The position numbers were made by a program, and so were the translations under genes. A stretch of DNA of 64,000 nucleotides, taken from the NCBI RefSeq assembly GCF_029224025.1, contig NZ_CP119392.1:1449001-1513000 (forward strand), read 5' to 3'. The notes under the pieces were generated by a model. It searched no databases and was not told the origin of the DNA. It saw only the letters and a program-made list of their open reading frames with translations. Shown piece after piece: positions 4,169 through 9,480 of this stretch. Numbering within the stretch: the first letter of the stretch is position 1; each line of letters starts with the position of its first letter. The DNA comes from Rhodanobacter sp. AS-Z3. Lineage in GTDB: Bacteria; Pseudomonadota; Gammaproteobacteria; Xanthomonadales; Rhodanobacteraceae.

Positions 4169-6280
4169 TCATGCCTCGTATTGATCCAACAGCCATTGCT
4201 GCGCCGAATGCACGGGTGCATCGCCTGGCGTGGCGCGGTGGTAATGGCCATCGGCATCCAGTAGCCACGCCTGCAGATTGTCGTCCAGATAGTTTTGCAG
4301 GGTCTCGCGGAAGATGCGCGTGGCGAGACGCGCGTCGCGCACGGGGAAACAGGCCTCGACACGTCGCAGTAGATTGCGCTCCATCCAGTCGGCCGATGAG
4401 CAGTAGAGTTTCGCTTCGCCGCCGTTGGCGAACCAGTACACGCGGCTGTGTTCCAGAAAGCGGCCCAGCACCGAGCGAACGCGGATACGCTCCGAAATGC
4501 CTGGCAGCCCGGGCCGCAGCATGCACGCGCCGCGCACGATCAGATCAATCTTGACGCCGGCGCAGGACGCGCGGTAGAGCGCCTCGATCATGGACGGTTC
4601 GTTAAGTGCGTTCATGCGTGCGACGATCCGCGCCGGCTTCCCCGCTTGCGCATGCTCTATTTCACGCGCCACGAGGGCCAGCAATCCCTGATGAAGGCTG
4701 AAGGGTGATTGCAGCAGTTGCTGCAGTTCAACCACCGGTCCGAGGCTGCACAATTGCTGGAAAATCTTGCTCACGTCCTCGCAGATGCTGGCGTCCTGGG
4801 TGATCAGCCCGATGTCGGTGTAAAGGCGGCTGGTGGCCTGGTGGTAGTTCCCCGTGGAGAGATGTGCGTAATGCCGTAGTACGCCGCGTTCACGGCGTAC
4901 GATCAGCAGCATCTTCGCGTGTGTCTTGTAACCGACCACGCCATAGACGACTTGCACGCCAGCTTCCTGCAGACGGTCGGCCAGGCGGATATTGGCTTCT
5001 TCGTCGAAGCGTGCGCGCAGTTCGATGACTACGGTTACTTCCTTGCCGGATCGCGCTGCATCGACCAGGTATCCGATCAGCGGCGAGTCTTCGCCGACGC
5101 GATACAGCGTTTGCCGGATTGCGAGCACATCCGGGTCCGTGCTCGACTTGCGCAGCAGTTCAAGCACCGGCATGAACGATTCGAACGGGTGATGCAGTAG
5201 CACGTCGCCCTGGCTGAGGGTTTCGAAAAGGCGGGCATGGGCGGCGAAGGTTGGCGCAACGGCAGGCACAAGCGGTGGGTATTTCAGGTCGGGACGATCG
5301 ACCATGTCGTAGATCGCCGCCGCCCGATGCAGATTGACCGGGCCTCCGCAAAGATACGCGTCGGTATCCTTCAGGCCGAAGTTGACCAGCAGCATCTGGC
5401 GGATCGCAGGTGTGCAGTCCGCGCCGAGTTCGAGCCGAACGGCTTCGGCATAGCCGCGTTCGCGCAACTCCAGACTCAATACCCGGGCCAGGTTCTCGGT
5501 ATCGTCGTCTTCGAGTTCCAGTTCGGAATCGCGCGTGACGCGAAACTGGTAGGCGCCGTGGATCTCCATGTCGGGAAACATCGCATCGGCGAACTCCTCG
5601 AGCAAGGTGGACAGGAACACGAATTGGCAAGGCACATCGGCAACGCCCTGCGGCATGCGGATCACACGTGGCAGTGAGCGTGGTGCACGTACCACGGCGA
5701 CGTTTCCCTCGCGCCCGAAGGCATCGCTGCCATTCAGTACCACGGCAACGTTCAGGCTCTTGTTGAGAATTCTGGGAAAGGGATGGGCCGAATTCAGCCC
5801 CAGCGGTGACAGCACAGGAAGAATTTCGCGCACGAAATGCTCGCGTGCCCAACACCTTTGTGCAGGCGACCACTGCTTGCTGTCACTGAAGACGATACCT
5901 TCAGCAGCCAGCGCCGGGCGCAGCGAATCGTTCCATGTTTCGTATTGCATATGCACCAGCCGAATGACGCTCTTGCGTACCTGGGCAAGCACCTCGCTCA
6001 ATGGCAGGCCGTCCGCGCCGGGTCGCGCGTCGCCATAGGCAATCAAGTGCCTGAGGCTGGCTACGCGCACTTCGAAGAATTCATCCAGGTTGCGCACGGA
6101 GATGCACAGGAACTGCAGTCGTTCCAGCAGCGGTACCGAAGTGGAGTTTGCCTGCGCCAGTACCCGGAAGTTGAATTCCAGCGTCGAGAGTTCGTGGTTC
6201 AGGTAGAGCTCTGGCGCACGGAAGTCCGGGTCGCTGGGTTCGGCTGCGCCGGCTTGCGGTGCAAGGGCAGAATTCATCAT
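4169..6280 (-). CDS. ppk1: Polyphosphate kinase PPK1
   Basis: Reversibly transfers the gamma phosphate of ATP to polyphosphate chains; 703 aa, a normal PPK1 length. The N-terminal domain begins ELYLNHELSTLEFNFRVLAQ. The two catalytic histidines match E. coli His435 and His592: His454 in GYKTHAKM (the phosphorylated residue) and His611 in RFLEHSRVYWF. HHPFESF and ARMNALNEPSMIEALY are further family motifs. Two adjacent ATG codons (6280, 6277) are candidate starts; the open frame extends further upstream, but that part overlaps the broken PAP2 gene and lacks PPK similarity. A weak Pho-box candidate lies about 90 bp upstream. Confidence 0.95.
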   Translation of the reverse strand: MMNSALAPQAGAAEPSDPDFRAPELYLNHELSTLEFNFRVLAQANSTSVPLLERLQFLCISVRNLDEFFEVRVASLRHLIAYGDARPGADGLPLSEVLAQVRKSVIRLVHMQYETWNDSLRPALAAEGIVFSDSKQWSPAQRCWAREHFVREILPVLSPLGLNSAHPFPRILNKSLNVAVVLNGSDAFGREGNVAVVRAPRSLPRVIRMPQGVADVPCQFVFLSTLLEEFADAMFPDMEIHGAYQFRVTRDSELELEDDDTENLARVLSLELRERGYAEAVRLELGADCTPAIRQMLLVNFGLKDTDAYLCGGPVNLHRAAAIYDMVDRPDLKYPPLVPAVAPTFAAHARLFETLSQGDVLLHHPFESFMPVLELLRKSSTDPDVLAIRQTLYRVGEDSPLIGYLVDAARSGKEVTVVIELRARFDEEANIRLADRLQEAGVQVVYGVVGYKTHAKMLLIVRRERGVLRHYAHLSTGNYHQATSRLYTDIGLITQDASICEDVSKIFQQLCSLGPVVELQQLLQSPFSLHQGLLALVAREIEHAQAGKPARIVARMNALNEPSMIEALYRASCAGVKIDLIVRGACMLRPGLPGISERIRVRSVLGRFLEHSRVYWFANGGEAKLYCSSADWMERNLLRRVEACFPVRDARLATRIFRETLQNYLDDNLQAWLLDADGHYHRATPGDAPVHSAQQWLLDQYEA

Positions 6281-6369: not shown

Positions 6370-6387
6370 GTGACGACCCGATGACCG
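6370..6387 (-). promoter_or_regulatory. Candidate Pho box upstream of ppk1
   Basis: Toward ppk1 the sequence reads CGGTCAT, four bases, TCGTCAC. These are two half-sites with 6/7 and about 5/7 agreement with CTGTCAT at the right 11-bp period. It is about 90 bp before the ppk1 ATG. No convincing -10 element follows at the usual distance, so this is only a candidate. Confidence 0.3.
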
Positions 6388-6773: not shown

Positions 6774-7893
6774 CGGGAGATCCACGCATCAGTGAGTTGA
6801 GCAGGCTCTCGAATTCGCAGATCACCGCATCCGGTGGGAACCGCTGCGCGCTGCGACGTGCGCTGATGCCCAGCTGCCGGCGCATGTCGGAATCCATGCC
6901 GAGTTGATAGGTCGACGTGATGAAGCCGCGTGTATCGGTTGCCGGCACGACCAGTCCAGAGATGCCGTGAGCAACGTGCTCCTGTGCCGCCGCCTGCTCG
7001 AAGGCGACCAGCGCCAGGCCGGACGCCATGGCCTCAAGCACGACGTTGCCGAAGGTTTCCGACAGGCTCGGAAACACGAACAGGTCTGCGCTGGCATAGT
7101 GGGCAGCCAGTTCCGTATCGTGCCTGGTGCCGACGAACAGCGCATCCGGGTACGCGGCAGCCAGCGCAGCACGCTGGGGGCCGTCGCCGACCATGACGAT
7201 GCGTGCGCCGGGTATGCGCGCCTGCACGGTGCGGAAGGCCTGTACGGCGAGGCCGAGATTCTTTTCTGCGGCGATCCGGCCGACGCACAGCAGCACCGGA
7301 GCGTTATCGTGCACGCCCCAACTTTTGCGCAAGGCGAGGTCGCGCCGATCCGGAGAGAACAGCCTGCTGTCGACGCCGCGGCGTAGTTTCTGCACGTGGT
7401 CGATGCCCGCATCGGTCAATTCCGCTTGCAACGCGCGGGTCGGCACCAAGGTCATTTGTGCGCGGCGATGAAAGCCAAGCAGGTGTTTGCGAACCAGTGG
7501 CGCCAGTAGCCCGACGCCGTAGTGCGCGGCGTAGTCGTGGAAGCGCGTGTGGAATCCGGTGACGACCGGAATGTCCAGTGCATTGGCCGTGCGCATTGCC
7601 GAGGCACCGAGCGGACCCTCCGTCGCGATGTACACCGCATCCGGCCGCTGCGTGATCCAGCGTCGGCGCAAAGCTTGGCCGGCGGGCAGGCCAAACTGCA
7701 TGCTGGGGTAACGCGGCATGGCCACGCCGCGTGCTGATACCAGACCGACTTTACCGTCACGGCCGGCGGCGCCCGGCCGGACCACTTCGACGTCGACGTT
7801 GCGTGCGGCTAGTCCCTCGGCGAGTGCGCGCACGGTAAGGGCGACGCCATTCACCTGGGGTGGCCAGGTTTCGGTGATGAAGGTGATCCGCAT
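6748..7893 (-). CDS. GT4-family glycosyltransferase (likely glycolipid synthesis)
   Basis: A 381-aa GT-B fold glycosyltransferase. The N-terminal acceptor domain starts MRITFITETWPPQVNGVALT. The C-terminal nucleotide-sugar domain has VLLCVGRIAAEKNLGLAVQA, IVMVGDGPQ and the E-x7-E motif SLSETFGNVVLEA. The start is set by AGGAG 7 nt before ATG 7893; upstream in-frame codons lack such a site. The sequence resembles the alpha-mannosyl/alpha-glucosyl diacylglycerol transferases (Agt/SQD2/PimB-like). Its place next to phoR-phoB, with a PAP2 remnant overlapping its 3' end, suggests a role in replacing phospholipids with glycolipids under phosphate starvation. The family is firm; substrate and product are inferred. 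Confidence 0.85.
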   Translation of the reverse strand: MRITFITETWPPQVNGVALTVRALAEGLAARNVDVEVVRPGAAGRDGKVGLVSARGVAMPRYPSMQFGLPAGQALRRRWITQRPDAVYIATEGPLGASAMRTANALDIPVVTGFHTRFHDYAAHYGVGLLAPLVRKHLLGFHRRAQMTLVPTRALQAELTDAGIDHVQKLRRGVDSRLFSPDRRDLALRKSWGVHDNAPVLLCVGRIAAEKNLGLAVQAFRTVQARIPGARIVMVGDGPQRAALAAAYPDALFVGTRHDTELAAHYASADLFVFPSLSETFGNVVLEAMASGLALVAFEQAAAQEHVAHGISGLVVPATDTRGFITSTYQLGMDSDMRRQLGISARRSAQRFPPDAVICEFESLLNSLMRGSPDDHLRAAA

Positions 7894-8032
7894 GTCTGCT
7901 CTCCTGCCGGGGCTGACACTGATCTTCGCGCCCTTGTGTTGCACCAATGCGACCGGGAAGTGACTTCGTTGAGACGCCGATGCCGCTGGCGCAAGGCCGG
8001 TCACCTGGCTCAGCTTCCACCGAGAGCCATGC

Positions 8033-8066
8033 CCGTCATCGGCTTGTCATCATGCATCGCGATACT
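8033..8066 (+). promoter_or_regulatory. Pho-box promoter on the plus strand between the glycosyltransferase and phoR
   Basis: Direct repeats CCGTCAT (8033-8039, 6/7) and TTGTCAT (8044-8050, 6/7) are separated by exactly 4 nt. GATACT (8061-8066) follows 10 nt after the second repeat, the geometry of PhoB-activated promoters where the box replaces the -35. It points away from both neighbouring genes, which are on the minus strand, and toward a strong terminator at 8141-8169. No protein gene is evident on the plus strand here. Confidence 0.6.
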
Positions 8067-8072
8067 GCGCTT

Positions 8073-8169
8073 GCCTTCCTTGACTCCCCTCCATGGCAAG
8101 GCAACTGGAGACGCCGATCTCTATCCCCAATCGGCTGCGGCGTGGATATTTTCCACGTCGTTTTTTTTT
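8073..8169 (+). ncRNA. Predicted Pho-regulated small RNA with C-rich loops
   Basis: From the expected transcription start (about 8073) to the T-run, about 97 nt fold into three hairpins. The first is CTTGCC/GGCAAG (8070-8075 with 8095-8100) with a 19-nt loop containing CTCCCCTCC. The second is GCCGAT/ATCGGC (8113-8118 with 8130-8135), loop CTCTATCCCCA. The third is the terminator CGTGGA/TCCACG followed by TCG and T9. C-rich unpaired loops that can pair with Shine-Dalgarno sequences are known from trans-acting small RNAs such as Xanthomonas sX13. The only open frame here (ATG 8093) has no ribosome site and runs antisense into phoR. Promoter, hairpins and terminator are seen; expression and targets are not. 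Confidence 0.55.
8141..8169 (+). terminator. Intrinsic terminator of the predicted small RNA
   Basis: A 6-bp stem CGTGGA/TCCACG with loop TATTT is followed by TCG and nine T residues. On the minus strand the same hairpin is followed by CCGCAGCC with no T-run, so it works for plus-strand transcription only. There is no plus-strand protein gene for it to serve, which supports the small RNA prediction. Confidence 0.75.
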
Positions 8170-8196
8170 CGTGGAGAGTGGCCTTCGTGCGAGACT

Positions 8197-9480
8197 TCAG
8201 TCGGCCGAAGCCGCGGCTCCGTTAATGTCATCGCGGCCCGGCGGTAGCACGCACGCGGCATCCATCACACAGGAGAAGGTCGAGCCTTGTCCCGGTTCGC
8301 TTTCGATAAGCAGGCGCCCGTGGTGCAGGTTGATCACGTGCTTGACGATCGAAAGCCCAAGCCCGGTGCCACCGGATTCACGTGAGCGACTGGAGGAGAC
8401 GCGATAGAAGCGTTCGGTGAGACGAATCAGATGCTCGGCGGAGATGCCCAGGCCGCTGTCACGCACCGAGAAGGTGGCGCCGCCGTCTGCTGTCTGCCGC
8501 CAACCGATCACGATTTCGCCGCCGCTGGGCGTGTAGCGCACGGCATTGCTCACCAGGTTGGAGAACGCGCTGTGCAAGTGGTGGGTCGAACCACGCAGGC
8601 ATGCCTGGCTGGCGGCGTCCACACGAATTGCATGGCGGCCCCGGCTGAGCGCCTCGGCTTCGCGCCGCAGCGTCTCCAGCATGGGAACCATTGCCACTTC
8701 TTCTTCCGGCAGCGCTTCGCCGGTTTCCAGTCGCGACAAGGTCAACAAGTCTTCGACGATTTGCCGCATCCGTTGCGATTGCATGCGCATTTCGCCGAGT
8801 ACGGGCGCCAGTTCCGGTACGTCGGTGGGGTCCAGCAGTTCCAGATAACCGTGAATGACCGTCAGCGGCGTGCGCAACTCGTGCGAAACGTTGGCAACGA
8901 AGTCGCGCCGTACCTGTTCGAGGCGACTGAGCGCGCTGATGTCGCGGGCCAGCAACAGGCGCAGACGGGAGCCAAACGGCATGATCGTTACACTCAGGCG
9001 CAGCGAGGGATCTTCCGGTGCGGGTATCTCGGCGATCGGTTCGTTGTTGTCCTGCAGCAGCCGGATGCCAAGTTCGCTACCGGCCATTTGCCGGGCCAGC
9101 GGAATGCCGCTGCGCCGCTCGCGCAGGCCGAGCAAGCGCCGCGCCGCCGGGTTGAACCAGTACACCTGTCCTTGCTGATCAAACAGCACGACCGCGTCAG
9201 GCAAGGCGCTTGCGGCATCGCGAACATCGCCTAGCTGAGAGCTCAGGCGCCGCTGCCTGTCCTTCCGGGTAGGTGAGAACCGTGGTGACTGTTCCAACGG
9301 GTGAGCCTGCGTCTCCGCTGCAGCTGGCAGCCACAGCAGGACGACGAGTTGGCCGCCGAGCGCGATACCGAGCGACCACCAGTTCACGCCCCAGATTGCG
9401 GCTGTCAGCGCAGTGAGCGTCAGCGAAACGGTCAGGACGGCAGCCGGTCCTGTGGCAAACAAGGCTTTGGTGGGGCGCAT
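8197..9480 (-). CDS. phoR: Phosphate regulon sensor histidine kinase PhoR
   Basis: Membrane sensor kinase of the phosphate two-component system, 427 aa. Two membrane segments (about residues 6-30 and 33-52) leave almost no periplasmic loop, as expected for PhoR, which senses through the Pst complex rather than a periplasmic ligand. A PAS domain follows (about 86-180, LPDAVVLFDQQGQVYWFN), then the dimerisation domain with His200 in FVANVSHELRTP, then the ATPase domain with SNAVRYT, DSGLGIS and GGTGLGLSIVKH. It lies 15 bp after phoB, in one operon. The 303-bp space beyond its stop holds the predicted small RNA on the other strand. Confidence 0.93.
   Translation of the reverse strand: MRPTKALFATGPAAVLTVSLTLTALTAAIWGVNWWSLGIALGGQLVVLLWLPAAAETQAHPLEQSPRFSPTRKDRQRRLSSQLGDVRDAASALPDAVVLFDQQGQVYWFNPAARRLLGLRERRSGIPLARQMAGSELGIRLLQDNNEPIAEIPAPEDPSLRLSVTIMPFGSRLRLLLARDISALSRLEQVRRDFVANVSHELRTPLTVIHGYLELLDPTDVPELAPVLGEMRMQSQRMRQIVEDLLTLSRLETGEALPEEEVAMVPMLETLRREAEALSRGRHAIRVDAASQACLRGSTHHLHSAFSNLVSNAVRYTPSGGEIVIGWRQTADGGATFSVRDSGLGISAEHLIRLTERFYRVSSSRSRESGGTGLGLSIVKHVINLHHGRLLIESEPGQGSTFSCVMDAACVLPPGRDDINGAAASAD

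Follow-up and report, generated by a model that had tools for sequence, protein, structure and literature searches.

A short intergenic stretch in Rhodanobacter sp. AS-Z3, located between a glycosyltransferase gene and phoR, raises the question of whether it encodes a small RNA (sRNA) of the phosphate response and, if so, how such an RNA would act. The window, i.e., the whole stretch of DNA analysed, is 64,000 nucleotides long, and the locus occupies positions 8033-8169 of its plus strand. Both neighbours lie on the minus strand: the glycosyltransferase gene on the 5' side, with its ATG taken at 7893, and on the 3' side a HisKA/HATPase kinase gene with its stop at 8197, which is named phoR because a response-regulator gene adjoins it. 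The initial annotation had placed here a Pho box with an 11-bp period, a GATACT -10 element 10 nt past it, and a terminator hairpin followed by T9. A base-level check agrees with all three calls. The features of the locus are as follows.

8033-8050, plus strand: Pho box CCGTCATCGGCTTGTCAT, read from the sequence; two direct repeats (GTCAT at 8035-8039 and 8046-8050) with a period of 11 bp
8061-8066, plus strand: -10-like element GATACT, read from the sequence, exactly 10 nt 3' of the Pho box
8073-8169, plus strand: predicted sRNA of ~97 nt, from a fold z of -3.99 and covariance-model matches; putative 5' end ~7 nt past the -10 element
8073-8102, plus strand: 5' hairpin, from the fold; its loop region holds C-rich CTCCCCTCC (8084-8092)
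8106-8111, plus strand: helix a, 5' arm UGGAGA, partner of 8118-8123, from the stem and its compensatory changes
8113-8117, plus strand: helix b, 5' arm GCCGA, partner of 8131-8135, located within the helix a loop
8118-8123, plus strand: helix a, 3' arm UCUCUA, from the stem search and compensatory changes
8124-8130, plus strand: C-rich crossing strand UCCCCAA, longer in most relatives and there with CUCCCC
8131-8135, plus strand: helix b, 3' arm UCGGC, from the stem search and compensatory changes
8137-8169, plus strand: intrinsic terminator, hairpin plus T9; stem called at 8137-8161, T9 at 8161-8169; the helix covaries and is kept in relatives

Folding of the 98 nt that begin at 8073 gives -34.1 kcal/mol, compared with -21.7 +- 3.1 for shuffled sequences, none of 200 shuffles being equally stable. 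Taken one at a time, the signals at this locus are weak. The terminator scan found 1 terminator at the locus with 0.6 expected, and a sigma-70 promoter scan gave no -35/-10 pair near the Pho box. The pattern GTCATN6GTCAY occurs at 15 sites in the window genome compared with 1 for the reversed control; since many of these sites fall within long open frames, the genome-wide pattern was dropped as stand-alone evidence.

The case is therefore carried by conservation across the family, because the box, the 10-nt spacer, the -10 element and the transcript are kept together at every verified locus while the bases upstream diverge. A DNA search with positions 8010-8190, the Pho box included, matched 20 of 41 genomes, every one of them a member of the window's genus. 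Two covariance models built from the transcript only, R1 from 20 and R2 from 77 sequences, reach further at a cut-off of E<=0.001: R1 matches 41 of 45 genomes of the genus and 94 of 233 genomes of the family, and R2 matches 139 of the 233, in 21 of 26 genera. At the same cut-off the RNA is absent from four of the 45 genus genomes (G001, G008, G017 and G023). Ten of the 139 R2 genomes were judged false, five of genus g22 (G131, G133, G135, G137, G142) were left out of the reading, and a few weak second R2 matches (such as in G217, G206 and G075) lay outside the loci read. The ten judged false are the weak R2 matches in G065, G068, G071, G073, G075, G088, G158, G225, G234 and G243, which have neither the box nor the neighbours and were set aside as non-carriers.

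Among the 149 candidate loci examined, 124, representing 16 of the 26 genera, have one or two of the expected neighbour genes; the other 10 genera are without an accepted copy. Each of the 124 carries a two-repeat box with NANNNT exactly 10 nt on; the repeats read GTCAY twice in 119, and a single base is changed in one repeat in the remaining 5. By contrast, none of the 25 loci without expected neighbours has a Pho box in the 200 bases searched. All 23 neighbour-confirmed loci that were found first through R2 (within the subset read) carry the box as well. This tests fairly whether box and RNA go together, for the models are free of promoter sequence and the neighbours were scored in a separate step. 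Two qualifications apply: the DNA used to find the first 20 loci contained the box, and its presence was a criterion in choosing the 77 rows of R2. The segment from the second repeat to the -10 element occurs in 48 stretches of named genomes, 36 of them in records named Rhodanobacter or Dyella. An order-level sample of 398 genomes yielded weak R2 matches in 14 genomes outside the family; 10 of these were read and none has the box or the neighbours, and the other four (G379, G413, G482, G490) belong to the same genus as two that were read.

The proposal that this is a noncoding RNA gene, served by a Pho-box-type promoter and a terminator of its own, is thus borne out by a unit conserved in 124 loci of 16 genera. 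The comparison of relatives by covariance models, suggested at the outset, finds box, stems and terminator conserved, the middle stems in a changed form. The short stretch looks like a real conserved noncoding sRNA gene that is kept together with a Pho-box-type promoter. It should be noted that five weak R2 matches in genus g16 (L257, L258, L349, L356, L357) resemble each other, with GTCTCCCCGT, GCACTCTC and a GGCGCGG terminator. They have no Pho box and no argS or radC, and are possibly another C-rich sRNA.

The genomic place of the RNA in most genomes differs from that in the window. In 112 of the 124 loci it lies between divergent argS and convergent radC, and in 7 others a single one of these genes adjoins it. 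The glycosyltransferase gene and phoR flank it in four (G000, G003, G006 and G044), and in G048 the glycosyltransferase gene is the single neighbour, at a contig end. The initial annotation had tied the RNA to the phoBR neighbourhood; with four of the verified loci beside phoR, that claim falls, proximity to phoR was dropped as part of the mechanism, and it looks incidental. In the window genome argS and radC are still adjacent, with no RNA in the gap, and the window copy is similar to an argS-radC copy over 8035-8171, i.e., from the box through the terminator. In G023 the glycosyltransferase gene adjoins phoR and the RNA is absent. G048, the assembly of which has a contamination of 4%, contains two copies of the glycosyltransferase gene (L341, at G048:C109:86000-86600, and L120, on G048:C7): the gap between one copy and phoR keeps a terminator-like hairpin only, and the other copy has an intact sRNA near the contig end. 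Taken together, the empty argS-radC gap of the window genome, the extent of the similarity and the gaps in G023 and G048 suggest a cassette that moved as a unit. Thus, the promoter-to-terminator cassette appears to have been relocated in the window's lineage, with the argS-radC gap as its usual place. Copies of the argS-radC type have a separate conserved element 5' of the Pho box, AACTTATGCACAAA, which is DnaA-box-like by eye and persists in the RNA-less argS-radC gap of the window genome (L242, G000:C1:407500-409500).

The promoter itself bears on the question of which regulator the RNA answers. The commonest -10-like hexamers over the 124 loci are CACACT (40), GACACT (25) and GACAAT (21). 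In a panel of one copy per genus (16 genera), the 30 bases 5' of the box hold 0-0.6 bits each; the invariance of the box in that panel comes partly from selection of the copies, so that locus counts serve as evidence instead. Two features typical of the Pho regulon are found: two repeats with an 11-bp period that resemble CTGTCAT-N4-CTGTCAT, and a fixed spacing between box and -10 element without a -35 (10 nt in 124/124 loci). The pstS promoters of the family likewise have an 11-bp period, in the form GTCAY-N5-TGMMAY, in 27 of 30 genomes against 0.0007 per shuffled locus, a pattern composed after inspecting those same promoters. At the window's own pstS, CTGTCAT occupies 2327-2321 of the minus strand, with repeats of the GTCAY-N5-TGMMAY type after it. 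E. coli PhoB promoters are described as needing a strictly set distance from Pho box to core promoter (PMC10294691), and this has its counterpart here. The 11-bp repeats common to pstS, together with the fixed spacing, therefore make PhoB control of the sRNA likely. Two further sites in the window are recorded here. The first is a classic multi-repeat Pho box, CTGTCATCAAGCTGCAACATTCATTTCATTCAATGGCAAC, at 2327-2280 on the minus strand, 5' of pstS (pstS match 1303-2160). The second, GTCATCGGGTCGTCAC at 6370-6385 on the minus strand, lies 5' of the likely start of a polyphosphate kinase gene (assumed near 6274) and has no -10-like hexamer 10 nt on.

The OmpR/PhoB family as a whole binds direct repeats with an 11-bp period, and the sRNA box (GTCAY twice) differs from the pstS boxes (GTCAY, then TGMMAY). 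A conserved trans-acting C-rich sRNA that answers another member of this family, and hence is not a phosphate-starvation RNA, must accordingly be weighed, and it is the alternative that survives best. We nevertheless consider it rather unlikely, for 27 of the 30 pstS promoters read likewise have the 11-bp period and the strict CTGTCAT repeat, and the distance from box to core is fixed, as in the PhoB promoters described in PMC10294691.

In the RNA structure, the 5' segment forms a single hairpin in 77/77 aligned copies, with very different stems and a C-rich loop (by eye). This hairpin with its CUCCCC loop is among the elements backed by compensatory changes. In the 20-copy alignment, 77.9% of the cells in the hairpin's columns are paired; in full-length folds of the 20 copies, it is broken in the best structure of L005. 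The terminator helix is paired in 99.8% of cells over the 77 copies, compensatory changes being present. Between these, two helices cross. Helix a has at least 3 pairs in 75 of 77 copies (L111 via an alternative pairing, none in L003 and L117) and is by itself paired in 73.9% of cells, and the stem of helix b is present in all 77. Own arms score modestly better than arms swapped across genera (means of 12.4 vs 10.8 for helix a and 12.9 vs 11.7 for helix b). Helices a and b and the terminator together pair in 89.2% of cells of the 77-row alignment, compared with 83.2% in shuffled and 33.2-62.0% in slid alignments. Cells with double changes in these three number 114 against 50.6 +- 7.4 in shuffles, a count that is to be read as support and not as a probability, since the shuffles ignore relatedness. 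The number of pair types in the same alignment does not exceed that of shuffles (22 vs 23.4). Changes on both sides, such as an H-type pseudoknot would be expected to leave, occur in 4 of 6 pairs of helix a and 4 of 5 pairs of helix b. In the window copy, each helix taken alone amounts to -5.0 (a) and -6.2 (b) kcal/mol.

The middle element is thus best described as conserved crossing helices that would form either a pseudoknot, if present together, or a two-state switch, if formed in turn. The two C-rich-loop hairpins originally drawn in front of the terminator survive in part: the 5' hairpin stands, and the second turns out to be one of the two conserved helices crossing each other. For this reason, the plain three-hairpin model was dropped for the middle element. 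Variants were noted in two genera. In genus g31, the middle element resembles a single extended hairpin whose loop is of the CCCCUCCCUCG type (by eye). Genus g37 holds the RNA in two clearly distinct sequence forms, most copies being near the form of the window's genus; the second form (L240, L241, L117) has GTATCCCC stems and a GCTGC/GCAGC helix b.

What the RNA would do is suggested by its C-rich stretches. The motif CTCCCC is found in hairpin 1 of 73/77 copies, in the middle element of 71/77 and in the terminator hairpin of 26/77. The window copy, which has UCCCC in its middle element, is among the 6/77 that are without CTCCCC there. The earlier proposal that the C-rich loops are able to pair with Shine-Dalgarno sequences agrees with this conservation, and conserved unpaired C-rich stretches complementary to Shine-Dalgarno cores place the RNA in the working class of C-rich-loop trans-acting sRNAs. 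Such motifs are reported in use by sX13 (PMC3771888) and NfeR1 (PMC10746234), which makes mRNA repression, by C-rich pairing with G-rich ribosome-binding sites, the likeliest mechanism by analogy.

The target search, by GGAGGGGA sites and conservation across genera, gave no supported target. GGAGGGGA precedes an ATG at 14 sites compared with 0 for the reversed control, but ribosome-binding sites would place Shine-Dalgarno-like sequence there in any event. Of the frames that follow these 14 sites, 8 were scanned: two encode TonB-receptor plugs, one a CsgG-type protein, one an M9 collagenase, one a histone-H1-like protein below the family cut-offs, and the rest are without a family over the cut-off. 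In many genera of the family, the ribosome-binding region GTCGGAGGGGAA of a Lys/Ala-rich histone-H1-like gene (L263, L306-L334) is strongly conserved. This is the best-conserved G-rich site, and since three g26 genomes that lack an accepted copy of the RNA retain it too, no target is claimed.

The comparison with known systems starts with sX13 of Xanthomonas, which the accessible text of PMC3771888 describes as a structured sRNA of ~100 nt with several stems and C-rich loops (CCCC/CCCCC) that target G-rich motifs near mRNA start sites independently of Hfq; it is given there as always 3' of polA and as confined to Xanthomonadaceae. The two RNAs share the order, a similar size, a structured form and C-rich loops. 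They differ in location, the 124 verified loci having argS/radC or glycosyltransferase/phoR neighbours instead of polA, and in architecture. Of three C-rich apical stems, the present RNA has the first, the middle is replaced by the crossing helices, and the terminator hairpin has CTCCCC in the minority of copies given above. Moreover, the word "phosphate" does not appear in PMC3771888, and no pseudoknot is described in its accessible text. Searches with the Rfam sX families gave no match at E<=5 in six loci, a result whose bearing on sX13 depends on Rfam containing it. The initial annotation's likening of the two in architecture therefore holds for the working principle and fails for the genomic place; the likeness is one of description, not of alignment, and sX13 is kept as an analogue, its different location speaking against a homologue.

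NfeR1/alpha-r14 of rhizobia (PMC10746234; Rfam RF02344) is described as having three structured domains with C-rich anti-Shine-Dalgarno motifs. It resembles the present RNA in these motifs and in a tie to nutrient stress, in its case nitrogen. It differs in being alphaproteobacterial, in its three plain hairpins with CCUCCUCCC, and in its regulation by LsrB and NtrC, as far as its paper was accessible. In the loci, RF02344 reaches 21.9 bits (E 1.9) and, on the opposite strand, 20.9 bits (E 3.2), which is chance level beside a gathering score of 58.8, and Rfam 15 as a whole has no match in the window at gathering score. EsrL of E. coli, likened here by description, is a reported PhoB-regulated sRNA for which K-12 ChIP-seq did not confirm PhoB binding (cited in PMC10294691). 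In Sinorhizobium meliloti, the accessible parts of PMC2573895 and PMC8829014 report candidate sRNAs for which PhoB sites are predicted, as well as sRNAs whose levels respond to phosphate starvation; the 2008 study among them has starvation-induced sRNAs without an evident conserved PhoB site, and the same parts describe no family-wide conserved unit of box plus structure. By the tests made, the present RNA is a new sRNA family. It falls outside Rfam 15, is nearest in working to sX13 and NfeR1, and is assigned to neither, in the case of sX13 by description.

We therefore favour, at a probability of roughly 0.7, a self-contained sRNA gene in the Pho regulon, encoding a PhoB-activated C-rich-loop RNA that would repress mRNAs with G-rich ribosome-binding sites. 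At phosphate scarcity, phosphorylated PhoB would bind the two-repeat box, which would substitute for a -35 element. Transcription would start shortly past the -10 element and give an RNA of ~97 nt, ended by the terminator; the anatomy and conservation of this unit are observed, and its expression is what they predict. The RNA would present two C-rich stretches, a loop on the 5' hairpin and a strand in the pseudoknot or two-state element. Judging by loop conservation and the tested analogues, these stretches would pair with G-rich ribosome-binding sites and so reduce translation. A bolder version, which we put forward tentatively and would not bet on at even odds, is that of a family-wide, hitherto undescribed Pho-regulon sRNA with C-rich anti-Shine-Dalgarno sequences both in the loop of a hairpin and in the strand that crosses within a conserved pseudoknot. 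In phosphate starvation it would reduce translation of many mRNAs whose ribosome-binding sites are G-rich, with pairing gated by transitions between the pseudoknot and an open form.

A conserved pseudoknot-like element is unusual in a pairing sRNA, which speaks for an RNA that acts through protein binding or through its structure and not by pairing with mRNAs; the fruitless target search fits that alternative as well. Nevertheless, it is the C-rich stretches that are conserved, the stems varying freely, and similar loops in sX13 and NfeR1 are reported to pair with mRNAs (PMC3771888, PMC10746234). Action without mRNA pairing is, in our opinion, improbable, slightly more so than control by another regulator. 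It is far less probable that the stretch is a small protein gene or the leader of a neighbouring gene. An open frame does begin at 8093, but its ATG is absent from most copies outside genus g1 and the first rows of g37, and gaps inside the frame are not multiples of three; as for a leader, phoR and radC downstream are on the opposite strand, so that the RNA cannot be theirs. Finally, a chance alignment of motifs in one genome, with which the near-expectation counts of single-motif scans would agree, is refuted by the 124 loci conserved over 16 genera.

On the preferred reading of a Pho-regulon sRNA gene, the locus touches a regulon that the accessible literature describes mostly as protein genes, PhoB-linked sRNAs being few and partly disputed (EsrL; PMC10294691). 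A literature search, with most subscription papers outside its reach, returned no sRNA study for Rhodanobacter, Dyella and their kin and none on the present RNA. As a fold, the crossing helices would be unusual among sRNAs that act by pairing. Over 16 genera, the Pho-type box, the core promoter at its rigid distance and the covarying RNA form one unit, which appears to have survived a genomic move. Its conservation and its survival of that move open a possible RNA arm of the phosphate-starvation response to direct testing in Rhodanobacter, Dyella and their kin.
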